Below are positions 1-32,750 of a stretch of DNA of 64,000 bases, in pieces; position 1 is the first letter of the stretch, and the number at the start of each line of letters is the position of its first letter. The notes under the pieces were generated by a model. The model had not been told where the DNA came from. It made no database searches and saw nothing but the letters and a program-made list of their open reading frames with translations. This stretch comes from Thermasporomyces composti (GTDB lineage Bacteria; Actinomycetota; Actinomycetes; Propionibacteriales; Actinopolymorphaceae). Where the stretch lies: contig NZ_QTUC01000001.1 of the NCBI RefSeq assembly GCF_003386795.1, positions 496,001 to 560,000 of the forward strand, given 5' to 3'. Position numbers and translations under genes: made by a program.

Positions 1-1029
1 GAAGTCCTCCGGCTCCTCAGCGGGAGTGTCGACCCGCGGACCGATGCCGAGCTTCTCCTTGATCTTCTTCTCCAGCTCGTCGGCCAGCTCAGGGTTGTCC
101 TTGAGGAACTTCCGAGCGTTCTCCTTGCCCTGACCGAGCTGGTCACCTTCATAGGTGTACCAGGCACCAGCCTTGCGCACGATGCCGTGCTCGACACCGA
201 GGTCGACGAGGTTCCCCTCGCGGCTGATCCCCTCACCGAACAAGATGTCGAACTCCGCCTGCCGGAACGGTGGCGCCAGCTTGTTCTTCACCACCTTGAC
301 CCGGACCCGGTTGCCCACCGCGTCCTGGCCATCCTTCAACGTCTCGATGCGCCGGACGTCCAGCCGGATCGACGCGTAGAACTTCAACGCCTTGCCGCCC
401 GTCGTGGTCTCGGGCGACCCGAACATGACGCCGACCTTCTCTCGGAGCTGGTTGATGAAGATCGCCGTGGTCTTGGAGGCGCTGATCGCACCGGTGAGCT
501 TACGGAGCGCCTGGCTCATCAAGCGCGCCTGGAGACCGACGTGGCTGTCCCCCATCTCACCGTCGATCTCCGCCCGCGGGACGAGAGCGGCCACGGAGTC
601 GACGACCACGACGTCGAGCGCCCCGGAACGGATGAGCATGTCGGCGATCTCGAGGGCCTGCTCGCCGCTGTCGGGCTGCGAGACGAGGAGGTTGTCGGTG
701 TCGACGCCGAGCTTGCGCGCGTACTCGGGGTCGAGGGCGTGCTCAGCGTCGATGAAGCCCGCGACACCGCCGGCTCGCTGAGCGTTGGCCACCGCGTGCA
801 GCGCGATCGTGGTCTTGCCCGAGCTCTCCGGACCATAGATCTCGACCACACGTCCGCGCGGCAGGCCGCCGATGCCGAGGGCCACATCGAGCGCGATGGA
901 GCCCGAAGGGATCACCTCGATGGGGGCGCGCCCCTCCTGGCCGAGACGCATGACCGCGCCTTTGCCGAACTGCCGCTCGATCTGCGCGATCGCCGCGTCG
1001 AGCGCCTTCTCTCGATCATGAGCCGCCAT
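1..1029 (-). CDS. recA: Recombinase RecA (C-terminus cut by window edge)
   Basis: ATP-dependent strand-exchange protein of homologous recombination and coprotease for LexA in the SOS response; cytoplasmic. The 343 codons visible begin [20 protein letters not shown]. They contain the Walker A GPESSGKT near residue 66 and the run of RecA signatures [27 protein letters not shown] and [14 protein letters not shown]. No intein is present in the visible part. The ATG at 1029 is the natural start for the family. The last residues and the expected recX lie beyond position 1. A LexA box about 220 bp upstream and DUF3046 next door are the normal actinobacterial setting. Confidence 0.97.
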
Positions 1030-19154: not shown

Positions 19155-20153
19155 TCACAGGGCTGCCCGCTTCTTCAGCGGCTCCCACCAGGCGCGGTTC
19201 TCCCGGTACCAGGCCACGGTCTCCGCCAGGCCGGTCTCGAAGTCCCGCTGCGGCGTGTACCCGAGCTCCTCGCGGATCTTCGTCCAGTCGACCGAGTAGC
19301 GACGGTCGTGACCCTTGCGGTCCTCGACGTACTCGACGCTGTCCCAGGTCGCGCCACAGGCGGCGAGCAACCGGTCGGTGAGCTCCTTGTTGGTCAGCTC
19401 CGTCCCACCCCCGATGTTGTAGATCTCGCCCGGACGGCCCTTCTCCAGCACGAGCGCGATCGCGCGGCAGTGGTCGTCGACGTGCAGCCAGTCCCGCACG
19501 TTGAGGCCGTCGCCGTACAGCGGGACCTTCTTGCCCTCGAGGAGGTTCGTGATGAACAGCGGGATGACCTTCTCGGGGAACTGGTAGGGGCCGTAGTTGT
19601 TCGAGCACCGCGTCACCCGCACGTCCAACCCATGGGTGCGGTGGTAGGACAGCGCGATCAGGTCGCTCGCGGCCTTGGAGGCCGAGTACGGCGAGTTCGG
19701 CTGCAGTGGGTCGGTCTCCGGCCAGGAGCCCTCCAGGATGGAACCGTACACCTCGTCGGTGGAGACATGGATGAAGGGTGAGACGCCGTGCCGGAGGGCG
19801 GCGTCGAGGAGCGTGTGCGTCCCCACGACGTTGGTCATCACGAAGTCGGCCGCGCCCTTGATGGACCGGTCGACGTGGGACTCGGCGGCGAAGTGCACCA
19901 CCGCGTCGTGGCCCGGCAGGACCTCATCGACCAGGGCGGCATCGGCGATGTCACCGTGGACGAAGGAGAAGCCGGGCAGGTCGCGCACCGGGTCGAGGTT
20001 GGCGAGGTTGCCGGCGTAGGTCAGCTTGTCCAGCACCGTCACCCGCGCGCCAGCCAGACTCGGGTACCCCCCGGTGAGCAGCGTGCGAACGAAGTGCGAG
20101 CCGACGAAACCGGCCGCTCCGGTGACGAGGATCGCGGGCGTCGAACGAGACAT
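19155..20153 (-). CDS. rmlB: dTDP-glucose 4,6-dehydratase
   Basis: Second step of dTDP-rhamnose synthesis. The 332 residues from ATG 20153 carry TGAAGFVGSHFVR at 11-23, FAAESHVDRSI, STDEVYG, the catalytic YSASKAASD and RCSNNYGPYQFPEK, all diagnostic of RmlB. A Met ten codons earlier would add a non-conserved leader. It lies between rmlA (57 bp upstream) and rmlD. Confidence 0.95.
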   Translation of the reverse strand: MSRSTPAILVTGAAGFVGSHFVRTLLTGGYPSLAGARVTVLDKLTYAGNLANLDPVRDLPGFSFVHGDIADAALVDEVLPGHDAVVHFAAESHVDRSIKGAADFVMTNVVGTHTLLDAALRHGVSPFIHVSTDEVYGSILEGSWPETDPLQPNSPYSASKAASDLIALSYHRTHGLDVRVTRCSNNYGPYQFPEKVIPLFITNLLEGKKVPLYGDGLNVRDWLHVDDHCRAIALVLEKGRPGEIYNIGGGTELTNKELTDRLLAACGATWDSVEYVEDRKGHDRRYSVDWTKIREELGYTPQRDFETGLAETVAWYRENRAWWEPLKKRAAL

Positions 20154-20210
20154 CGTGGAACCTTGTGGGGCTTGCCCTTGCATGACTATCCGATCGTGAC
20201 GAGCTGACTG

Positions 20211-21284
20211 TTACGAGCTGATCTGGATCCTGCTGTGGTCACCGAGGACCAGCCGGTGCGCCTTCGGCACCTTCGGGGCCGGCGTGACCTGGACCTGGTG
20301 GCCGATGAGCGACGCCTCGATTCGGCGTACCCCCTGGATCGACGAGTTGTGCAAGACGATCGAGAACTCGATCTCGGAGTCGATGATCTGGCAGTCGTGC
20401 TGGACCGAGGTGAACGGCCCGATGTAGGAGTCGACCACCCGGGTGTTCGCTCCGATGATCACGGGGCCGACGATCCGTGAGCCGACGATCTCCGCGCCCT
20501 CCTCGACGACGACCCGGCCGATGATCTCGGACGTGTCGTCGACCGATCCGTCGATCTTCGGCTCGAGCCGCTCCAGGACCGAGCGGTTGACCTCCAGCAT
20601 GTCCTCGACGTTCCCGGTGTCCTTCCAGTAGCCGGAGATCACCGTGGACCGCACGTCGTATCCCTGGTCGACCAGCCACTGGATGGCGTGGGTGATCTCC
20701 AGCTCCCCGCGCCAGGACGGCTCGATCTTGCGCACTGCCTGGTGGATCACGGGCGTGAACATGTAGACGCCGACCAGTGCGAGGTCGCTCTTGGGCTGCT
20801 TGGGCTTCTCCTCCAAGCCGACGACCCGACCGTTCTCGTCGAGCTCGACGACGCCGAACGCGCTGGGGTTGGGCACGTGCTGGAGGAGGATCTGGGCGTC
20901 GGGACGGGTGGCGCGGAACTCGTCCACCAAGGGCGTGATGCCGCCGACGATGAAGTTGTCGCCGAGGTACATCACGAAGTCCTCATCCCCCAGGTAGTCG
21001 CGTGAGATGAGCACGGCGTGCGCCAGCCCACGCGGCGCGTCCTGTGGGATGAACGTCACATCCAGGCCGAACCGCGAACCGTCGCCGACCGCCTCCTTGA
21101 CCTCCTCGGCGGCCTGGTCCACGCCGACGACGATGCCGACCTCCCTGATCCCGGCGTCGGCGATCGCCTCCAGCCCGTAGAAGAGGACAGGTTTGTTGGC
21201 CACCGGAACCAGCTGCTTGGCCGACGTGTGGGTGATCGGCCGCAGTCGAGTACCAGCGCCGCCGGACAGAACCAAAGCTCGCAT
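20211..21284 (-). CDS. rmlA: Glucose-1-phosphate thymidylyltransferase (long, LbH-containing form)
   Basis: First step of dTDP-rhamnose synthesis: dTTP plus glucose 1-phosphate. The 357 residues include LSGGAGTRLRPITHTSAKQL near residue 5, ANKPVLFYGLE, YLGDNFI and GELEITHAIQWL. The C-terminal 120 residues form left-handed beta-helix repeats (IIGRVVVEEGAEIVGSRIVG). This is the long StrD/RffH-independent class found in actinobacterial sugar pathways, not the 290-residue enterobacterial RmlA. Met 21284 is the conserved start; an upstream extension of 33 codons is non-homologous. First gene of the rmlABD unit. Confidence 0.92.
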   Translation of the reverse strand: MRALVLSGGAGTRLRPITHTSAKQLVPVANKPVLFYGLEAIADAGIREVGIVVGVDQAAEEVKEAVGDGSRFGLDVTFIPQDAPRGLAHAVLISRDYLGDEDFVMYLGDNFIVGGITPLVDEFRATRPDAQILLQHVPNPSAFGVVELDENGRVVGLEEKPKQPKSDLALVGVYMFTPVIHQAVRKIEPSWRGELEITHAIQWLVDQGYDVRSTVISGYWKDTGNVEDMLEVNRSVLERLEPKIDGSVDDTSEIIGRVVVEEGAEIVGSRIVGPVIIGANTRVVDSYIGPFTSVQHDCQIIDSEIEFSIVLHNSSIQGVRRIEASLIGHQVQVTPAPKVPKAHRLVLGDHSRIQISS

Positions 21285-21485
21285 GAAGCGACACCATAGC
21301 CGCTGTACCGCATGCCGCTCGTGTCCACCACCGTGTGGTTGGTACGCCGTGTGATGATCTTTCCCCACACGGGCACAGGCCACGGACGGTTGCCGCGCCC
21401 GCTATGCCCCGACCTGGGTCGTCAGGCAACCTACTGGGCAGCGGTCGGCGTCCTGGGACCGACCGCCCACGGCGAAGGGAGCCGC

Positions 21486-22115
21486 GTGCGGAGAGACCGC
21501 GAGGAGGCGTTCGATGCGTTTGTCCGCACTCGCATGCCGGAATTGTTGAGGTTCGCCCACATGTTGACGGGCAACCCCGACGCCGCCGCGGACTTGGTGC
21601 AGGACGCCTTGGAACGCGCTCTCGACGCCTGGCCTCGGATTCGCAATCACGAGGACCCGGAAGGCTACGTCCGCCGGATCATGGTCAACCGAAACGTCAG
21701 CATCTGGCGTCGCCGACGGCGTGAGTACCTCGTCGAGGGGGTCCCCGATCAAGCGCACCACGACGACCCGCCCATGCTCGACCCGGAGCTGCGCGCCGCG
21801 CTCGCGGCACTGCCACCGCGTCAGCGGACCGTCCTCGTCCTCCGGTACGGCGAGGACCTGTCCGAGCGGCAGGTCGCGGAGATGCTGGGCTGCTCGGTCG
21901 GCACGGTGAAGAGCCAGGCCTTCAAGGCGCTCGCGAAACTGCGGGAGCACTTGTCACGCCCCACCGACAGCACGCCGGCGAGCACGGCCGTGGCCGCCCC
22001 CACGCGCGACGACCCGGTGCGTGGGAAGCCGGTGTCAGCGCCGAGAACCAGCGGACGGGACGAGAGCACCCCAAGCGAACCCGGCGGGGAGGAGGCCACT
22101 CCATGGACCCGCTAG
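21486..22115 (+). CDS. SigE-family (ECF-like) RNA polymerase sigma factor
   Basis: Directs RNA polymerase to a small regulon. The 209 residues from GTG 21486 follow GAAGGGAG. Region 2 is LLRFAHMLTGNPDAAADLVQDALERAL with RRIMVNRN, and region 4 is LPPRQRTVLVLRYGEDLSE plus the helix-turn-helix AEMLGCSVGTVKSQAFKAL. The YVRRIMVNRNVSIWRRRRR block and the short linker match the actinobacterial SigE family. The C-terminal 45 residues are Pro/Thr/Glu-rich and disordered. It overlaps the next gene by 13 bp, so the partner there is probably its membrane regulator. No classical anti-sigma zinc motif is nearby. Confidence 0.9.
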   Translation: MRRDREEAFDAFVRTRMPELLRFAHMLTGNPDAAADLVQDALERALDAWPRIRNHEDPEGYVRRIMVNRNVSIWRRRRREYLVEGVPDQAHHDDPPMLDPELRAALAALPPRQRTVLVLRYGEDLSERQVAEMLGCSVGTVKSQAFKALAKLREHLSRPTDSTPASTAVAAPTRDDPVRGKPVSAPRTSGRDESTPSEPGGEEATPWTR

Positions 22116-23431
22116 AGGAACGCCTCCGTCAAGCGCTGCGGGACGAGGCGTGGAGCCTGCCGGTCGACCCCGCGCTGCTGTCCCGCGTGCGCGCGGGAGC
22201 CGCCCGGAGGCGCCGGCGGCGGTCGCTCGCGCTCGCTGCCGCGGCGGTCACGATCGTGGCGACCGGCTTCGGCGTCGTCGGTCTCCTCCTGGGCTCGGAG
22301 CAGGCGACCGTGGCGAGCGGGGCGGGCGAAGCGGCGACCATGATGGAGCGCTCCGCAGCGGGTGACGACACCTCGACGTCGACCGGTGCTGATCCAACGC
22401 CGCTCGACGCGGGAGCCGAGCGGGCTCCCGTCCCCGACACACCCGACCCGTCGACGACCCGGACCCACCGGGCCGGACCCACCCGCGCTCCGGCCGAGGC
22501 GCCCGTCCCCGACGGCTTCACGCCGACGGCCGTCGCCGCCGCGAGCCCCAGCACCGCCTGGGTGCTGGGAACCTCGGACGGCGTCGATGGCGCGGTCGTG
22601 GCCGTGTCCGAGGACGGCGGGGCGACGTTCGCGCTCGCGGGCACGATCGGGGCCGCCCTCGCTCGCAGCGACGGCGAGACGGGACCGGACACGGTGCGCT
22701 GGCTCACGTTCGCCGCGGACGGACGACACGGATGGGCCTACGGCGGCGCTCTGTGGACGACCCAGGACGCCGGCCGGTCCTGGTCGGTCACCCGCAGCGT
22801 TCCCGGCACGGTGGAGCGCGTGGAGACCGACGGAACGACCGCGTACGCGCTCGTCCGCGACGGGGACGTCTGGCGGCTGTGGCGGGCTCGCGTCGGCACG
22901 GTGGACTGGCGGGCGCTTCCGGTCGAGATCCACGACCCGAGGACGGTGACGGTCACGGATCGGCTCCTCGCTCTCACCGACCGCGACGACACCGGTGCGT
23001 ACGTCCTGGTGTCCACCGACTCCGGCGCTTCGTTCACCCGGCAGGAGACGCCGTGCTCCCCGGACCTCGACGCCGGGCAGGTGACGGCCGCCGGCGCCTC
23101 CCTGTGGCTCACCTGCCCCAGCGGCAGCCAGCAGACCGTGCACCTGTCGACCGACCACGGCCTCACCTGGACACAGGTCCCGACGGGACCGCTTCCCGCC
23201 ACCGCCGCCGAGCTCAGCGCCCGCGGCGCACGTGACGCGGTGGTCGCTCTTCCCGGTCGCGCGATGCTGCTCGACCCGGACGGCGCCCGGCACGCCAGCG
23301 TTCCCGGCATGGGCGAGCCGATGATGGCCGCGTTCACCACCGAGGGGACCGGCTATCTCCTCGACGTCGAGGGCAATCTCTTCCGCACCACCGACGAAGG
23401 CAGCACGTGGAGCCGCGTGACCGTCGACTGA
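22103..23431 (+). CDS. Membrane-anchored Asp-box (BNR/sialidase-type) repeat protein, putative sigma-factor partner
   Basis: A 442-residue type II-like membrane protein. A cytoplasmic N-terminus of about 40 residues ends in RRRRRR, then one transmembrane helix (about 42-64), a Pro/Thr-rich linker (75-140) and an extracytoplasmic domain. Five Asp-box motifs of the S-x-D-x-G-x-(T/S)-W/F type lie near residues 169, 220, 304, 349 and 429, implying a beta-propeller. The start codon lies inside the sigma-factor gene, giving a 13-bp overlap and likely translational coupling. The short N-terminus could bind the sigma factor. No anti-sigma domain is recognised, so that role is inference. Confidence 0.75.
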   Translation: MDPLEERLRQALRDEAWSLPVDPALLSRVRAGAARRRRRRSLALAAAAVTIVATGFGVVGLLLGSEQATVASGAGEAATMMERSAAGDDTSTSTGADPTPLDAGAERAPVPDTPDPSTTRTHRAGPTRAPAEAPVPDGFTPTAVAAASPSTAWVLGTSDGVDGAVVAVSEDGGATFALAGTIGAALARSDGETGPDTVRWLTFAADGRHGWAYGGALWTTQDAGRSWSVTRSVPGTVERVETDGTTAYALVRDGDVWRLWRARVGTVDWRALPVEIHDPRTVTVTDRLLALTDRDDTGAYVLVSTDSGASFTRQETPCSPDLDAGQVTAAGASLWLTCPSGSQQTVHLSTDHGLTWTQVPTGPLPATAAELSARGARDAVVALPGRAMLLDPDGARHASVPGMGEPMMAAFTTEGTGYLLDVEGNLFRTTDEGSTWSRVTVD

Positions 23432-23486
23432 GCCCGTGCGCCGCACGGTGAGGGCGTCAGGCGCGTGCTCGTCGACAGCCGGCGCC

Positions 23487-23508
23487 GGCCAGGGCCAGCC
23501 CCTGGGCC
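23487..23508. terminator. Possible bidirectional terminator
   Basis: GGCCAGGG (23487-23494) pairs with CCCTGGGCC (23500-23508), with one bulged G, over a 5-nt loop. It lies between the convergent stops at 23431 and 23563, where a terminator is expected. Confidence 0.35.
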
Positions 23509-23562
23509 TCCGGTCTCGTCACACCGCGTGCCAGACCGTCGTAGCCGGGGCCCTCTCGGGAC

Positions 23563-24651
23563 TCAGGAAGCCGCCACCGAGCCCGTCGGCGCGGTGGGCG
23601 AGCCGCGACGCAGCCGGTCGTCGACGTAGACCAGCGCACGGCCGAAGCGGACCCGCACCTCTTCCTCCGTCCCTTGCTCCAGACCGACGAACGCGCGCAC
23701 GGTCACGACGCCGAGGTCGAGCACGATCTCCTTGTAGTGCCCCCGCGGCATGACCCGGACGATCCGCGCCTTCGCGCCGTCACCGTCGGCCACGATCTGG
23801 ACGTCCTCGGGACGGACGCCGACCGTGCCGGGCGTGTCGAGCAATGCGGTCGGCGCCGCGCAGGGGACCACCACGCCGTCGCCGAGGTCGACCACGGCTC
23901 CCTGGCCCGTGGACCGCACCCGGGCCTCGAGGAAGTTCATCGTGCCCACGAAGTCGGCGACGAATCGGGTCTCCGGCTCCCGGTACAGCGCGTGTGGATC
24001 GGCGTACTGCTCGATCCGACCGTTGTTCATGACAGCGATCCGGTCGGAGATCGCGAGCGCCTCGTCCTGGTCGTGCGTGACGAACACCGTCGTGATGCCG
24101 ACGCGCTGTTGGATCTGCCTGATGTCCTCGCGTACCCGCACCCGCAGCTTCGCGTCGAGGTTCGACAGCGGCTCGTCGAGCAACAGCACCTTGGGCTCGA
24201 GGACGAGCGCCCGGGCGAGCGCCACACGCTGCTGCTCCCCGCCGGAGATCTGCGCGGGATAGCTGTGGATGTGATGGGTCAGGTTGACCGACGCGAGAAC
24301 GCGTTCGACCCGCTCGGCCACCTCCCGCTTGGGCAGCTTGCGCAGCCGCAGACCGTATGCGACGTTCTTGAAGACGGTCATGTGCGGCCACAACGCGTAG
24401 TTCTGGAACACCATCGCGGTCGGGCGCCGCTCCGGCGGCGTGTGGGTGTACGGAGTGCCGTCGATCAGCACCTCGCCCGCGTCCGGACGCAGGAAGCCGC
24501 CGATGATCCGCAGGGTCGTCGTCTTTCCGCAACCGGAGGGACCGAGCAGACAGACCAGCTCGCCACGGCGCACCTCGAGGTCGAACCCGTCGACGATCGT
24601 CCGCCCGCCGAGCACCTTGGTGATCCCGCGCAACGTCAACCCGTCGCTCAT
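23563..24651 (-). CDS. ABC importer ATP-binding protein (PotA/FbpC/UgpC group)
   Basis: ATPase of 362 residues driving the permease pair upstream. Motifs: GPSGCGKTTTLRIIGG (Walker A, about 36-44), Q-loop MVFQNYALWPHMTV, signature ISGGEQQRVALARAL, Walker B VLLLDEPLSNLDAKL and FVTHDQDEAL. The C-terminal 120 residues form an MOP/TOBE domain (VGVRPEDVQIVADG). LWPHMTVFKNVAYGL is typical of iron, spermidine and phosphonate importers. It starts 7 bp after the permease stop as the last gene of the four-gene unit. Confidence 0.92.
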   Translation of the reverse strand: MSDGLTLRGITKVLGGRTIVDGFDLEVRRGELVCLLGPSGCGKTTTLRIIGGFLRPDAGEVLIDGTPYTHTPPERRPTAMVFQNYALWPHMTVFKNVAYGLRLRKLPKREVAERVERVLASVNLTHHIHSYPAQISGGEQQRVALARALVLEPKVLLLDEPLSNLDAKLRVRVREDIRQIQQRVGITTVFVTHDQDEALAISDRIAVMNNGRIEQYADPHALYREPETRFVADFVGTMNFLEARVRSTGQGAVVDLGDGVVVPCAAPTALLDTPGTVGVRPEDVQIVADGDGAKARIVRVMPRGHYKEIVLDLGVVTVRAFVGLEQGTEEEVRVRFGRALVYVDDRLRRGSPTAPTGSVAAS

Positions 24652-24658
24652 CTGACCC

Positions 24659-25546
24659 CTAACGCAGGTGGAAACCCTCGGCGAGACGACCGCCCATGAC
24701 GTGCCGACGCACCAGCAACATGAGCAGCACCGAGGGGATCGACAACAGGATGGAGAACACCGCCGCGGCCTGCTCCGGGTAGTTGAGCACGAGGGTGTAC
24801 ATCTCGGTCGGCATGGTGATGTAGTTCGGCGCGCCCACGAGGAAGGTGCCCTGAGCCTCGTCGAACGACGCGAGGAACGACAGGATCATCGCGACCAGGA
24901 TGCCCGGCGCGGCGAGCGGGAACGTCACCGTGAAGAACACCCTCAACGGCCCCGCGCCGACGTCCCGAGCCGCCTCCTCCAGGCTGCGGGGAACGGACGC
25001 GAACGCCGCCGCGGGTATCCACGTCATGAAGACGATCGTGCCGAGGAGCTGGACCACGACGACGCCGAGGAACGTCCCCATGAGGTGGAGGCTGTAGAGC
25101 AGGCCGGCGACCGACACGAACAGTCCGATCTTCGGGAACGCGTTGGTCGCGAAGAGGGAGACGAGGAGCACCCGCCGCCCCGGGAAGTTGAACCTCGCGA
25201 ACGCGTAGGCAGCGGGCAGGCAGATGAGCGCGGAGAGCGCCGTGACGACCGGCGCGAACGTGAAGCTCAGCCGGATGGAACTGCCCAGCGTCTGGTCCGC
25301 CAGGACCTGCCGCCACCAGCTCAGCGTCCAGCTCTCCGGCAACAGCGAGGGGTACGACCAGGAGGCCGCGAACGCCCGGAGGGACAACCACACGAGCGGG
25401 CCGAGAATGAACACCGCGAGCAGGAGCACGCACAACCCGAGCACACCCCGGGCGACCACCCGGCGGACGACGTTCACGACCGGCCGGCGGGGCTCCGGGA
25501 CCGCGGACGCCTCGTCGACCCGCTGACGCGCCTGCACCGTGCTCAT
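24659..25546 (-). CDS. ABC importer permease (inner membrane, PotC-like)
   Basis: Integral membrane protein of 295 residues with six predicted helices and the EAA loop motif EEAARDVGAGPLRVFFTVTFPLAAPG, which docks to the ATPase. It overlaps the preceding permease by 4 bp (25543-25546), so the two are translationally coupled. The N-terminal 30 residues are polar. Homology class: binding-protein-dependent transport permease of the putrescine/iron type. Confidence 0.9.
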   Translation of the reverse strand: MSTVQARQRVDEASAVPEPRRPVVNVVRRVVARGVLGLCVLLLAVFILGPLVWLSLRAFAASWSYPSLLPESWTLSWWRQVLADQTLGSSIRLSFTFAPVVTALSALICLPAAYAFARFNFPGRRVLLVSLFATNAFPKIGLFVSVAGLLYSLHLMGTFLGVVVVQLLGTIVFMTWIPAAAFASVPRSLEEAARDVGAGPLRVFFTVTFPLAAPGILVAMILSFLASFDEAQGTFLVGAPNYITMPTEMYTLVLNYPEQAAAVFSILLSIPSVLLMLLVRRHVMGGRLAEGFHLR

Positions 25547-27806: not shown

Positions 27807-30800
27807 GTGAGGGAGTATGGGGCGGTGGTGCCCCACGGTGACGTCCTCGAACGCTTCTCACCGGCGACCAGGGAGTGGTTCCGGTCGTCGTTCCCCGAAC
27901 CCACGCCGGCGCAGGTGGGCGCGTGGGACGCGGTGAGCCGGGGCGAGCACAGCCTGGTGGTGGCGCCGACCGGGTCGGGCAAGACGCTCGCGGCGTTCCT
28001 GTGGGCTCTCGACCGGCTCGCGACCAGCTCGCCACCCGCCGACCGGCGCCGTCGCTGCCGAGTCCTCTACGTCTCGCCGCTCAAGGCCCTCGCCGTCGAC
28101 GTCGAGCGCAACCTGCGTGCCCCCCTCGCCGGCATCCGGCACACCGCGCAGCGGCTCGGCCTGCCGACCCCCGAGATCGAGGTGGCGATCCGGACGGGAG
28201 ACACACCCGCCGACGCTCGGCGCCGGTTCAGCCGCCGTCCCGCCGACATCCTCATCACCACGCCGGAGTCGTTGTTCCTGCTGCTGACGTCCCAAGCTCG
28301 CGAGGCGCTGCGCGGCGTGGAGACCGTGATCGTCGACGAGGTGCACGCGCTCGCCGGCAACAAGCGGGGCGCGCACCTCGCGCTGAGCCTGGAGCGCCTC
28401 GACGCGCTCGTCGCCGGCCGGCCGGGAGCACCCCGTGACGGGGACACCGGTGAAGGGGGCCCTTCTCCCTCCGGTCCATCCGGTCGACCCCAGCGCGGCC
28501 CCACCCAGCGCATCGGGCTGTCGGCCACGGTCCGTCCCGTGCAGGAGGTCGCGCGCTTCCTCGGCGGCGTGGCACCGGTGACCGTGGTCAATCCGCCGTC
28601 CGCCAAGGAGCTCGACCTCCAGATCGTCGTCCCGGTCGAGGACATGGGGGAGCTCGGGCAGACCTTGCCGATGGAGGAGCAGCTCGGCGCCGCCGCCGGC
28701 CCGGAGCGCCGCTCCTCGATCTGGCCACACGTCGAGGAACGGGTCGCCGACCTGGTGGAGCGGCACCGGTCCACCCTCGTCTTCGCCAACTCCCGTCGGC
28801 TCGCGGAGCGACTCACCGCGCGGCTCAACGAGATCCACGCCCTTCGGCTCGAGGAACGAGGCGACGGGGACGTCGACTCCGCGGCGGACGGGAGCTCGGC
28901 GCCCAGGATCCCAGCGCAGATCATCCCGGCGCAGATCATGGCCCAGTCAGGGGCGAGCCGAGGCTCTCCCGCCGTCCTCGCCCGCGCTCACCACGGCTCG
29001 GTCAGCAAGGAGCAGCGGGCACGCATCGAGGACGATCTGAAGTCCGGTCGGCTCCCGTGCGTCGTCGCCACGAGCAGCTTGGAGCTGGGCATCGACATGG
29101 GGGCCGTCGACCTCGTCGTCCAGGTCGAGTCCCCGCCCTCCGTGGCGAGCGGTCTGCAGCGCGTCGGCCGGGCGGGACACCAGGTGGGCGCCGTCTCTCG
29201 CGGAGTCATCTTCCCCAAGTACCGCGGCGACCTGCTCGCCACCGCCGTCGTCGCCGAGCGCATGCGCGCTGGTCTCATCGAGGAGACCCGCGTGCCGGTC
29301 AACCCGCTCGACGTCCTCGCCCAGCACATCGTCTCCGCCGTGTCCGTCGACACCTGGCACGTCGACGACCTCTTCGACCTCGTACGCCGGACGGCGTCGT
29401 TCCAGACCCTGCCCCGCTCGGCCTACGAGGCGGTGCTCGACATGCTGGCCGGACGGTACCCGTCGGACGAGTTCGCCGAGCTACGGCCGCGCCTGGTCTG
29501 GGACCGCGTCGCCGGGACCCTCACCGCCCGCCCCGGCGCCCAACGGCTCGCGGTCACCAGCGGGGGCACGATCCCCGATCGGGGGTTGTTCGGCGTCTTC
29601 CTCGTCGGCGAGAAGTCCAGCAGGGTGGGCGAGCTCGACGAGGAGATGGTCTACGAGTCCCGGGTCGGCGACGTCTTCACGCTCGGCGCGTCCTCCTGGC
29701 GGATCGAGGACATCACCCACGACCGGGTGCTCGTCTCCCCCGCGCCGGGTCAGCCGGGCCGACTCCCGTTCTGGCGAGGTGACACCCTCGGGCGACCCGC
29801 CGAGCTCGGACGGGCGATCGGCGCGTTCGTTCGGGAGCTCTCCCGCCTCGATCCCGACCAGGCCCGCGAGCGGGTACGCGCCGCGGGTCTCGACGAGTGG
29901 GCGACCGACAACCTCCTCGACTACCTGGAGGAGCAGCGCCAGGCGACGCGCCACCTGCCCAACGACCGGACGATCGTCGTCGAGCGGTTCCGCGACGAGC
30001 TGGGGGACTGGCGGGTGTGCGTGCACAGCCCCTACGGCGCGGCGGTGCACGCTCCGTGGGCACTGGCCATCGCCGCCAGGTTGCGCGAGCGGTACGGCGT
30101 CGACGTCCAGGCCATCCACGCCGACGACGGCATCGTGCTGCGCATCCCCGACACCGAGGACACCCCACCCGGCGCCGACCTCGCGCTGTTCGATCCCGAC
30201 GAGATCGAGCAGATCGTCACCGAGGAGGTCGGTGGGTCGGCGCTCTTCGCGGCACGGTTCCGCGAGTGCGCCGCCCGCGCCTTGCTCCTGCCACGTCGGG
30301 ACCCTCGACGGCGGTCTCCGCTCTGGCAACAGCGCCAACGGTCGGCGCAGCTGCTCGCGGTGGCGAGCAAGTACGGGTCGTTCCCCATCGTGCTGGAGAC
30401 GGTGCGGGAGTGCCTGCAGGACGTCTACGACCTGCCGGGCCTCGTCGAGGTGCTGCGCGGCATCGCCGCCCGCCGGATCCGCGTCGTGGAGGTCGAGACC
30501 AGCGAGCCGTCGCCGTTCGCCAAGTCGCTGACCTTCGGCTACATCGCCGCGTTCATGTACGAGGGGGACGCGCCTCTGGCCGAGCGGAAGGCCGCCGCGC
30601 TCTCCCTCGACCGGTCCCTGCTGGCGGAGCTGCTCGGCCAGGCCGAGCTGCGGGACCTGCTCGACCCTGAGGTGATCGCCCACACCGAGGCGGAGCTCCA
30701 GCGGCTCACCCCCGACCGTCGCTGCCGCGACCTCGAGGGCGTCGCCGACCTGCTCCGGCTGCTCGGGCCGCTGTCCACCGAGGAGGTCGCGGCACGCTGC

Positions 30801-32750
30801 GCCGAGCCTGACCGAGCCGCCGCGTGGCTGGCGGAGCTGGAGCGTGCGCGACGGGTCATTCGCGTGCGCGGACCGGCGACCCACCCGGCTGGAGCCGGCG
30901 AGCAGGCGGAGCCGGTCGAGCGGTGGGCGGCCATCGAGGACGCGGGACGGCTGCGCGACGCCTTGGGCATTCCCCTGCCGGTCGGGGTCCCGGAGGCGTT
31001 CACCGAGCCGGTCGCTGACCCCCTCGGCGACCTCGTGGCCCGCTACGCCCGGACCCACGGGCCCTTCCACGCCGTCGACGTGGCCCACCGCTTCGGTCTG
31101 GGCGTCGCCGTCGTCCTCACGACCCTGCGCCGCCTGGCGGCCGAGGGACGGGTCGTCGAAGGCACCTTCGGAAGGTCGCCTTGGACCAGCCCGCCCTCCG
31201 ACGGCGCTGGTGATGGGCTCGCCGCGGACTCGGACGCGTTCGTGGACGCGAGCCTGTCCGGAAGCGAGTGGTGCGACGCCGGTGTGCTCCGACTCCTGCG
31301 GCGGCGTTCACTCGCCGCCCTCCGCCGCGAGGTCGAGCCCGCCGAGCCGGAGACCCTGGCCCGTTTCCTGCCGGTCTGGCAGCACGTGGGTGGCCGGCTT
31401 CGCGGGACAGAGGGCGTGCTCCGGGTGGTGGAGCAGCTGGCCGGGTGCGCGGTGCCGGCGTCGGCGCTCGAACGGCTCGTCCTCGCCGTGCGAGTCGCCG
31501 ACTACTCCCCCGCCATGCTGGACGAGCTGACCGCCTCCGGCGAGGTGCTGTGGGCCGGTCACGGATCCCTCCCCGGCACCGACGGGTGGATCTCCCTGCA
31601 CCTCGCCGACACCGCGCCGCTGACCTTGCCCGAACCGGACCCCGCGTTCGAACCCGGACCACTGCACCGCGCGATCCTGCGGGTCCTCGAACCCGGCGGT
31701 GGCTACTTCTTCCGACCGCTGGCGGACGCCGTCCAGCGCCTGCTCCTCGACGAGCGCCCGTCGGACCAGGCCCACGAGGACGCCGGCGATCCGACCCTCG
31801 TGACCGACGCGGCGCTGGTCACCGCCCTGTGGGACCTGGTCTGGGCGGGGTACGTCACCTGCGATACCGCCGCCCCGCTGCGGGCGCTGCTGTCCGGCGG
31901 ATCGCCGGCGCACCGACAGCGGACGACGCCGACCCGGGCGAGATTCGCTGGTCGGCCGTCCCTGCGCGGCCGGCCGGCGCTGCCGACCCGGACCGGGCCA
32001 CCGATCGCCGCCGGCCGGTGGTCGCGACTGCCGGAGCGGGATCCGGACCCCACCCGCCGGGCCCACGCGATCGCCGAGGTGCTGCTCGATCGTCACGGCA
32101 TCCTCACTCGTGGCGCCGTGGTCGCCGAGCGGATCCCGGGTGGCTTCGCCGCCGCCTACCAGGTTCTCTCGGCCTTCGAGGAGGCGGGCCGCTGCCGTCG
32201 GGGCTACTTCGTCGCAGGGTTGGGCGCCGCGCAGTTCGGGGTGCCGGGGGCGGTCGATCAGCTCCGCGCGATGGCGCAGGAGGCACGGACCGACGGCGCG
32301 CCCCTGGACCTCGCGGTGGTGCGGGAGCGGACGGTCGCGGACCGTTCCACTCGTACCCTCGTGCTGGCCGCGACGGACCCCGCGAACCCCTACGGCGCGG
32401 CACTCCCCTGGCCGCCCCGCCCTCACCAGGTGCAGGAGGAGTCCGCCGGGCACCGGCCGGGCCGGAAGGCGGGCGCGCTCGTCGTCTTGGTCGACGGTCG
32501 GCTCGTGCTGTACGTCGAACGGGGTGGTCGGACGTTGCTGACCTGGAGCGACGACCCAGGGGTGCTGCAGCCCGCGGTGGACGCCCTGGCGTTGGCCGTG
32601 CGGGAAGGCGTCCTCGGCAAGCTGAGCGTCGAGCGGGTCGACGGCGAGGCGGTGCTCAGGGCGCACACGGACGGCGAGAGCCCGCTCGCCTCCGCTCTCG
32701 CCGCGGCGGGCTTCTACGTCACGCCTCGCGGCCTGCGCCTACGCGGGTGA
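27807..32750 (+). CDS. lhr: Large superfamily 2 helicase Lhr
   Basis: ATP-dependent 3'-5' DNA/RNA:DNA helicase implicated in repair. The 1647 residues start with RecA-like domain 1: TPAQVGAWDAVSRGEHSLVV, Walker A APTGSGKT (about 54), TTPESLFLLLT, the Walker B box DEVH (about 177) and SATV. Domain 2 follows with STLVFANSRRLAERL, HHGSVSKEQR, ATSSLELGIDMG and QRVGRAGH. Then come winged-helix and Lhr-core domains and the long C-terminal Lhr extension. A disordered insert before SATV and a 15-bp tandem repeat (28908-28937, IPAQI twice) mark unconserved loops. Start is GTG 27807 or one of two GTG codons six and seven codons later. Lhr beside nei and clgR is normal actinobacterial order. Confidence 0.93.
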   Translation: MREYGAVVPHGDVLERFSPATREWFRSSFPEPTPAQVGAWDAVSRGEHSLVVAPTGSGKTLAAFLWALDRLATSSPPADRRRRCRVLYVSPLKALAVDVERNLRAPLAGIRHTAQRLGLPTPEIEVAIRTGDTPADARRRFSRRPADILITTPESLFLLLTSQAREALRGVETVIVDEVHALAGNKRGAHLALSLERLDALVAGRPGAPRDGDTGEGGPSPSGPSGRPQRGPTQRIGLSATVRPVQEVARFLGGVAPVTVVNPPSAKELDLQIVVPVEDMGELGQTLPMEEQLGAAAGPERRSSIWPHVEERVADLVERHRSTLVFANSRRLAERLTARLNEIHALRLEERGDGDVDSAADGSSAPRIPAQIIPAQIMAQSGASRGSPAVLARAHHGSVSKEQRARIEDDLKSGRLPCVVATSSLELGIDMGAVDLVVQVESPPSVASGLQRVGRAGHQVGAVSRGVIFPKYRGDLLATAVVAERMRAGLIEETRVPVNPLDVLAQHIVSAVSVDTWHVDDLFDLVRRTASFQTLPRSAYEAVLDMLAGRYPSDEFAELRPRLVWDRVAGTLTARPGAQRLAVTSGGTIPDRGLFGVFLVGEKSSRVGELDEEMVYESRVGDVFTLGASSWRIEDITHDRVLVSPAPGQPGRLPFWRGDTLGRPAELGRAIGAFVRELSRLDPDQARERVRAAGLDEWATDNLLDYLEEQRQATRHLPNDRTIVVERFRDELGDWRVCVHSPYGAAVHAPWALAIAARLRERYGVDVQAIHADDGIVLRIPDTEDTPPGADLALFDPDEIEQIVTEEVGGSALFAARFRECAARALLLPRRDPRRRSPLWQQRQRSAQLLAVASKYGSFPIVLETVRECLQDVYDLPGLVEVLRGIAARRIRVVEVETSEPSPFAKSLTFGYIAAFMYEGDAPLAERKAAALSLDRSLLAELLGQAELRDLLDPEVIAHTEAELQRLTPDRRCRDLEGVADLLRLLGPLSTEEVAARCAEPDRAAAWLAELERARRVIRVRGPATHPAGAGEQAEPVERWAAIEDAGRLRDALGIPLPVGVPEAFTEPVADPLGDLVARYARTHGPFHAVDVAHRFGLGVAVVLTTLRRLAAEGRVVEGTFGRSPWTSPPSDGAGDGLAADSDAFVDASLSGSEWCDAGVLRLLRRRSLAALRREVEPAEPETLARFLPVWQHVGGRLRGTEGVLRVVEQLAGCAVPASALERLVLAVRVADYSPAMLDELTASGEVLWAGHGSLPGTDGWISLHLADTAPLTLPEPDPAFEPGPLHRAILRVLEPGGGYFFRPLADAVQRLLLDERPSDQAHEDAGDPTLVTDAALVTALWDLVWAGYVTCDTAAPLRALLSGGSPAHRQRTTPTRARFAGRPSLRGRPALPTRTGPPIAAGRWSRLPERDPDPTRRAHAIAEVLLDRHGILTRGAVVAERIPGGFAAAYQVLSAFEEAGRCRRGYFVAGLGAAQFGVPGAVDQLRAMAQEARTDGAPLDLAVVRERTVADRSTRTLVLAATDPANPYGAALPWPPRPHQVQEESAGHRPGRKAGALVVLVDGRLVLYVERGGRTLLTWSDDPGVLQPAVDALALAVREGVLGKLSVERVDGEAVLRAHTDGESPLASALAAAGFYVTPRGLRLRG

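Follow-up and report, generated by a model that had tools for sequence, protein, structure and literature searches.

Two overlapping genes in the window (the whole stretch of 64,000 nt that was analysed, part of a single-contig host genome of 4.37 Mb) most likely encode an ECF sigma factor together with a cognate anti-sigma factor that is anchored in the membrane, a reading to which we assign a probability of about 0.8 on genomic evidence. A role of the second protein as sensor and anti-sigma factor had been proposed by an earlier sequence-only reading, which had called for a search for conserved sigma/Asp-box gene pairs. The earlier reading is borne out in part. Its proposal of a sensor and anti-sigma role has gained genomic support: the pairing was found in 8/8 genomes of the family and next to 11/11 close sigma orthologs outside of it, and the N-terminal module of the partner lay next to a sigma gene in 30/30 loci checked. 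The lack of conserved pairing that would have refuted the proposal was thus not observed.

The product of the first gene scored 187.8 bits against the SigE-family model TIGR02983 (cut-off 141.55). Pfam placed Sigma70_r2 at residues 13-79 and r4_2 at residues 101-152, and all remaining matches above cut-off overlapped one of these two domains. With regions 2 and 4 only, the protein has the domain composition of an ECF sigma factor. The GTG start codon is kept in all eight family genomes. Three SigE-family sigma genes exceed the TIGR02983 cut-off in the host genome, and membrane proteins are encoded downstream of the other two as well. The 13-bp overlap between sigma gene and second gene that had been claimed earlier agrees with the coordinates of both genes (21486-22115 and 22103-23431), and from this overlap we infer that translation of the partner is coupled to that of the sigma gene. 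An Rfam scan of window positions 20000-25000 gave nothing at gathering score. PADLOC returned no match for the partner and one weak match for the sigma factor, to its helix-turn-helix.

Table 1. Features of the sigma-partner locus, in window coordinates.
Feature	Position	Strand	Evidence
Candidate autoregulatory ECF promoter, GGCAACC-N17-CGTC	21425..21452	+	8/8 family loci
SigE-family ECF sigma factor gene, GTG start	21486..22115	+	TIGR02983, Sigma70_r2, r4_2
Purine-rich ribosome-binding stretch for the partner gene, within the sigma gene	22086..22095	+	sequence; purine-rich in 8/8 family loci
Overlap of sigma and partner genes, 13 bp	22103..22115	+	present in 8/8 family loci
Membrane partner gene, ATG start, 442 aa, probable anti-sigma factor	22103..23431	+	sequence, pairing, alignment, AlphaFold2 model
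Two-helix basic cytoplasmic module, residues 1-41, candidate anti-sigma domain	22103..22225	+	profile of residues 1-~63, AlphaFold2 helices
Single transmembrane helix, about residues 44-62	22232..22288	+	hydropathy peak 2.21 at residue 44
Outer stalk rich in Pro/Thr/Ser, about residues 65-138	22295..22516	+	pLDDT <50 at 54-126
Asp-box beta-propeller, residues 139-440	22517..23422	+	pLDDT about 92; Foldseek
Asp-box 1, residues 169-176	22607..22630	+	exact motif
Asp-box 2, residues 220-227	22760..22783	+	exact motif
Asp-box 3, residues 304-311	23012..23035	+	exact motif
Asp-box 4, residues 349-356	23147..23170	+	exact motif
Asp-box 5, residues 429-436	23387..23410	+	exact motif

The partner carries a run of arginines immediately before its one hydrophobic stretch (residue 44). 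According to the positive-inside rule, a N-terminus lies inside when basic residues directly precede the membrane helix; since this is the arrangement found here, the N-terminus of the partner is predicted to be cytoplasmic. The AlphaFold2 model, built on an alignment of eight orthologs (mean pLDDT 78), contains helices at residues 3-13 and 23-54 with modest confidence, the second of which continues into the membrane, followed by a disordered region (residues 54-126) and a confidently modelled propeller. Five exact Asp-boxes were counted in the protein versus a maximum of one among 2000 shuffles of the same sequence, and Pfam reported a BNR match of 28.8 bits (cut-off 27). The best Foldseek matches of the propeller were GH74 xyloglucanases (7.7e-11), YCF48 (1.7e-10, with target TM-scores reaching 0.67) and sortilin (2.3e-10). 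A second structural aligner gave 50 entries with Z values of 21-23, and almost all of these were propeller proteins. Motifs, BNR match and fold matches together identify the outer part as an Asp-box beta-propeller. Glycosidases of family GH74 are built from two propellers, and the partner model holds a single one. Sequence and model agree on the short basic inner end, the one helix and the five outer Asp-boxes that the sequence-only reading had described.

Among the Asp-box partners, C338 is invariant (16/16) and P317 nearly so, the latter being followed by a cysteine in most of them (C318 in the window protein). The invariant C338 and the cysteine after P317 suggest a disulfide bond C318/C338 within the propeller. 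A further weak match to part of the propeller (E 5.4e-7) is located elsewhere in the host genome, at G000:C1:1555076-1555543 on the minus strand, in an open frame of 859 residues.

Full-length orthologs of the partner were present in all seven other family genomes searched (41-50% identity), and the pair retained the identical 13-bp overlap in all eight, the window included. In the first search with the partner, four of the five weak matches at order level sat behind a sigma gene. The remaining one (L018) was discarded as unrelated, as it displayed FHA-like and protease-like sequence by eye and had matched over a basic membrane stretch. When named genomes were scanned with an alignment of the sigma factor, 40 loci were obtained, two of which (L051 and L063) turned out to be family members again. 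The eleven nearest sigma orthologs outside the family (L052-L062) belong to Acidothermus, Acidothermales, Frankiales, Nocardioidaceae, Propionibacteriales and an unplaced actinobacterial MAG. Each of them is followed by a membrane partner with Asp-boxes as detected by pattern, and these partners were aligned over their full length. The genes overlap by 4 nt in eight of these loci, by 13 nt in one and by 11 nt in another, and are separated by a gap of 48 nt in L055. Adjacency and conservation, as expected of an anti-sigma factor, were thus found both within the family and beyond it. From the more distant loci of the scan, L064-L067 and L085 were looked at, with L068-L084 and L086-L090 left out. 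The sigma genes of L064-L066, all from Kribbella, are accompanied by a partner devoid of Asp-boxes, no partner was found behind the sigma gene of Streptomyces smaragdinus (L067), and L085 contained no sigma gene above threshold.

The inner end of the partner was followed with a profile built from 17 Asp-box partners and restricted to their first ~63 residues. It matched 71 of the 118 genomes of the class in which it was searched (E<=0.001). At the loci checked, one per genome, every match immediately followed an ECF sigma gene (30/30, three of which, L181-L183, had contributed to the profile), and Asp-boxes were absent from 18 of them according to a loose pattern. A profile of the full-length partner matched 63 of 148 genomes; 23 of the 30 loci examined sit behind a sigma gene, and the seven others match only from profile position 68 on, which corresponds to the propeller without the inner end (one of these seven, L098, is cut off by a contig end).

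The frequency of such partners was then estimated in the order, using the highest-ranked loci among 57 genomes (L022-L050 and L121-L180), which gave 89 loci with 89 distinct sigma ORFs after a near-duplicate (L177) had been dropped and one sigma gene at a contig edge set aside. Coverage of the survey is confined to the highest-scoring SigE relatives. A strict partner was defined as starting within 60 nt of the sigma stop codon and having its first helix at 22-80 with a basic flank. Such a partner was located behind 83 of the 89 sigma ORFs versus 6 of 453 control ORFs, the latter being a rough control as it consists of the other ORFs of the same loci, including many spurious frames. Exactly one membrane helix was predicted in 82 of the 83 strict partners, and 67 of them overlap the sigma gene by 4 nt (ATGA). 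Among the six sigma ORFs missed by the rule, L132 and L145 have a partner by eye, L171 has a shorter and less basic one, and none was seen by eye for L147, L167 and L169. Only one strict partner (L142) contains more than one Asp-box by pattern, so that the propeller appears to be special to the ortholog group of the window and a few others. The basic architecture of the second protein, which the sequence-only reading had suggested might be undescribed, is not peculiar to the window locus: high-scoring SigE-family sigma genes of the order are as a rule followed by a membrane partner of this build, and the special part is the Asp-box propeller.

Other outer domains were also observed on partners, namely PASTA (L017) and Gmad2 (L199). 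Two further loci share genomic flanks with the window locus: L192 is preceded by recA and followed by lhr, and L193 is followed by lhr. Their sigma factors are 58-60% identical to the window sigma, their partners have no Asp-boxes, and the partner of L193 carries DUF4232 (E 3.8e-10). Outer domains have been exchanged in place at this recA/lhr-linked locus, and the inner end is probably an anti-sigma module that is combined with exchangeable outer domains.

In the window itself, recA (40-1029, minus strand) and lhr (27807-32750, plus strand) flank the pair at a distance. Among the 11 loci outside the family, lhr comes after the pair in 7 and recA before it in 3, with flanks of differing length; within the family, lhr also follows it in L051. 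The gene rmlA adjoins the pair in 8/8 family loci and in 0/11 outside loci, within the flanks covered. Considering this distribution and the recurrence of lhr and recA elsewhere, the wall-glycan genes and ABC genes that surround the pair in the window look like later neighbours. Glycan and ABC-transporter genes have apparently split an old syntenic block, recA-pair-lhr. In several MAG loci of Nocardioidaceae and Propionibacteriales (L055-L058 and L060-L062), a gene for an ABC-transporter ATPase is divergent to the sigma gene; with 34-37% identity to the ABC gene of the window, the divergent ATPase of the MAG loci among L055-L062 probably belongs to another transporter.

Direct contact between both proteins was addressed on 129 sigma-partner pairs. 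The correlation of tree distances was 0.56 between the sigma factor and the cytoplasmic end, versus 0.27 for the arginine block and 0.26 for the membrane helix, with a permuted maximum below 0.10. This correlation is shallow; the value of 0.56 is compatible with a shared interface and also with shared descent combined with unequal variability of the alignment columns. Mutual information over the 129 pairs was too shallow to name contacts. As a surrogate for the complex, L055 was modelled with AlphaFold, since sigma factor and partner lie there in one frame and can be read through their stop codons as an artificial single chain. Two initial alignments (A6 and A7) were discarded as the partner rows fell on the sigma part. 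The third one (A8), with 51 rows made of sigma rows and three in-frame read-through rows, produced a model with pTM 0.53 and block pLDDT values of 61-79 over the N-terminal helices, versus 56-76 in a model without the sigma factor; there was no confident docking, and neither PAE nor contacts were part of the output.

Alignment of the upstream regions of the eight family loci revealed a single conserved block, GGCAACCTAC, with GCGTC downstream of it at constant spacing. In all eight, this candidate promoter begins about 61-65 nt upstream of the sigma start. The pattern GGCAACC-N13-20-CGTC was detected upstream of 17 of 130 sigma genes, versus a mean of 0.12 and a maximum of 1 after mononucleotide shuffling and 0 on the reverse strand. 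The exact promoter occurred in 16 of 32 sigma loci of the ortholog group, for which the score threshold was chosen by the analyst, versus 0 of 97 outside the group, and additionally in L055. Generic sites of the type GGAAC-N14-18-GTT were counted 11 times in the window (4.28 expected), and none of them was found before the sigma gene in this window scan.

The host genome contains 18 matches of the promoter pattern with a spacing of 16/17, versus 7 for the reversed pattern, and 11 of the 18 overlap a GC3-rich ORF if the over-long frame of the META gene described below is counted. When a start codon was required 6-10 nt after the motif, 36 matches were obtained in the eight family genomes versus 11 with the reversed motif. 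One of the genes concerned encodes a lipoprotein with two META domains and is located outside the window, at G000:C1:1469524-1470596 (L217, L237). The motif stands before this gene in seven of the eight family genomes, where CGTC is separated from the ATG by 8 or 9 nt; the motif of the eighth has one changed base, and in G001 the gene occurs in tandem copies with the motif before both. With so short a distance to the ATG, the META lipoprotein gene is predicted to be transcribed as a leaderless mRNA under the window sigma factor. Outside the family, META matches were obtained in two of ten genomes, one of them above cut-off, and the gene of G082 showed no promoter motif. On these grounds, the META gene appears as a family-specific target at best. 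Two other candidates from the host genome were dropped: the motif before secY was found in one of eight family genomes only, and a gene for a secreted-type protein was present in two of the eight, with the motif in one.

It could be argued that both genes are merely co-transcribed and that the propeller acts as a YCF48-like envelope or secretion-assembly factor without any contact to the sigma factor. The nearest folds indeed include YCF48 assembly factors next to glycosidases, and Asp-box propellers are mostly binding scaffolds. This reading is nevertheless very improbable, as the N-terminal module persists when the propeller is missing and lay behind sigma genes in 30/30 loci checked, whereas matches made of the propeller only had no sigma neighbour (7/7, one at a contig end). 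Another possibility is that the partner serves as a membrane co-factor or tether, needed for the activity of the sigma factor or its placement at the membrane, instead of as an inhibitor. Membrane anchor, exchangeable outer domain and autoregulated operon are the usual plan of anti-sigma factors, which argues against it; pairing, overlap and N-terminal modularity, however, would fit any direct partner, and the genomic picture would be the same for an activator or a tether. The title of PMC7509140 describes RskA as a dual activator-inhibitor, and a section of PMC8103513 presents anti-sigma control as the most widespread mode. The co-factor or tether is considered unlikely here.

The preferred reading, a sigma factor with its own anti-sigma factor of an unnamed subtype, includes a sub-case in which the cytoplasmic end is not a new domain and rather a divergent member of class II (CnrY-like) or class III (RsbN-like). 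Two short helices before the membrane helix, within less than 50 residues, correspond to the plan of CnrY. The window partner matched no anti-sigma family of Pfam or NCBIfam at E<=1, and no such family was found in Pfam at E<=0.01 for 84/84 partners. The NCBIfam model NF052375 ('anti-sigma factor') gave weak matches in 6 of the 84 partners and NF038083 (CU044_5270) in 18, the window protein being in neither set; those looked at reached 15-20 bits for a cut-off of 100 and extended over the N-terminal end and the membrane helix. The N-terminal profile, searched against PDB sequences without a positive control, retrieved no anti-sigma chain at E<=10. The statement of the sequence-only reading that no known anti-sigma domain is present was therefore upheld for the window protein. 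While the missing matches among solved chains and in Pfam speak against a known class, the sequence tests behind them are weak for such short domains, and the sub-case is tentatively kept as quite conceivable.

A working scheme can be proposed for the sigma factor and its membrane-anchored anti-sigma factor. The two short cytoplasmic helices would bind the sigma factor and keep it off RNA polymerase. The propeller would meet a signal on the outside, and its Asp-box fold leaves room for several kinds of ligand, be it a polymer of the envelope, a glycan or a peptide. The signal would loosen the hold, either by a change passed through the membrane helix or by cleavage of the anti-sigma factor. 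The freed sigma factor would then transcribe its own operon from GGCAACC-N17-CGTC and, in the family of the window, also the leaderless gene of the double-META-domain lipoprotein.

Some actinobacterial groups are rich in SigE-family sigma factors, whose partners mostly lack a family name. With a short anti-sigma module that is easy to recognise, sigma factor, sensor, promoter and target could be paired by sequence alone. The window locus offers testable items for this, namely a candidate binder of 41 residues, a promoter sequence and the META lipoprotein gene as reporter. Extending the idea, an unnamed class of membrane anti-sigma factors could hold almost all SigE-family ECF sigma factors of the Actinomycetes, its members combining a translationally coupled, basic, two-helix cytoplasmic domain of ~41 residues with outer sensors that are freely exchanged (Asp-box propellers, DUF4232, PASTA, Gmad2 and others), a generalisation to which we give an even chance. 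If it is true, the genomes of genus g5, where 15-40 SigE-family matches per genome were obtained (18 genomes searched), would hold a comparable number of envelope sensors, of which we found no description. The matches of this genus (among them L172, L153, L155, L128 and L138), some of which are arranged as neighbouring sigma-partner pairs, form an uncharted set of putative sensors.

The portions of the literature covered by the search do not describe the sigma/propeller pair and its N-terminal module, and the main ECF classification may already list the module. Several known systems are related to parts of it. The Asp-box propeller fold of the partner is common to YCF48, GH74 and sortilin; to our knowledge, none of these propellers acts as an anti-sigma factor. 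RsgI has a polysaccharide-sensing outer domain with carbohydrate-binding modules and an anti-sigma domain of a different kind, and SigI belongs to a different sigma family. The SigI-RsgI system of Clostridium thermocellum controls cellulase regulons as an anti-sigma system, according to an excerpt of PMC10766802. Actinobacterial ECF sigma factors with a membrane helix are known from groups ECF52 and ECF53, such as SCO4117 of Streptomyces coelicolor with its outer carbohydrate-binding domain, but according to PMC8999054 these parts, including a zinc-finger anti-sigma domain, are fused to the sigma factor, whereas the window locus encodes two separate proteins, of which the partner bears an Asp-box propeller, and no such domain was found there. 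With SCO4117 and RsgI as precedents, glycan sensing by the propeller is possible.

CnrY-CnrH of Cupriavidus metallidurans is a metal-sensing system in which a short anti-sigma end is followed by a membrane helix. Three classes of anti-sigma factors, sharing a two-site mode of binding, are distinguished in PMC7406223 and PMC8103513. The window protein matched no RseA, RskA or zinc family as class I would. RsbN, the membrane-anchored anti-sigma factor of BldN in Streptomyces venezuelae (class III), is likewise actinobacterial (PMC8103513, in part); its domain has three helices according to a passage of PMC7406223, where the two names are swapped, versus two modelled in the window partner, and no sequence match to it was found. 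In class II, two cytoplasmic helices form the anti-sigma domain of CnrY, as modelled here with modest confidence, and the same passages of PMC7406223 set domains of less than 50 residues aside as possible members of this class. CnrY and the window partner have no detectable sequence similarity; the 41 residues before the membrane helix agree with class II in size. In its working mode, the partner would resemble a short anti-sigma factor of class II (CnrY type) equipped with a swappable outer sensor.
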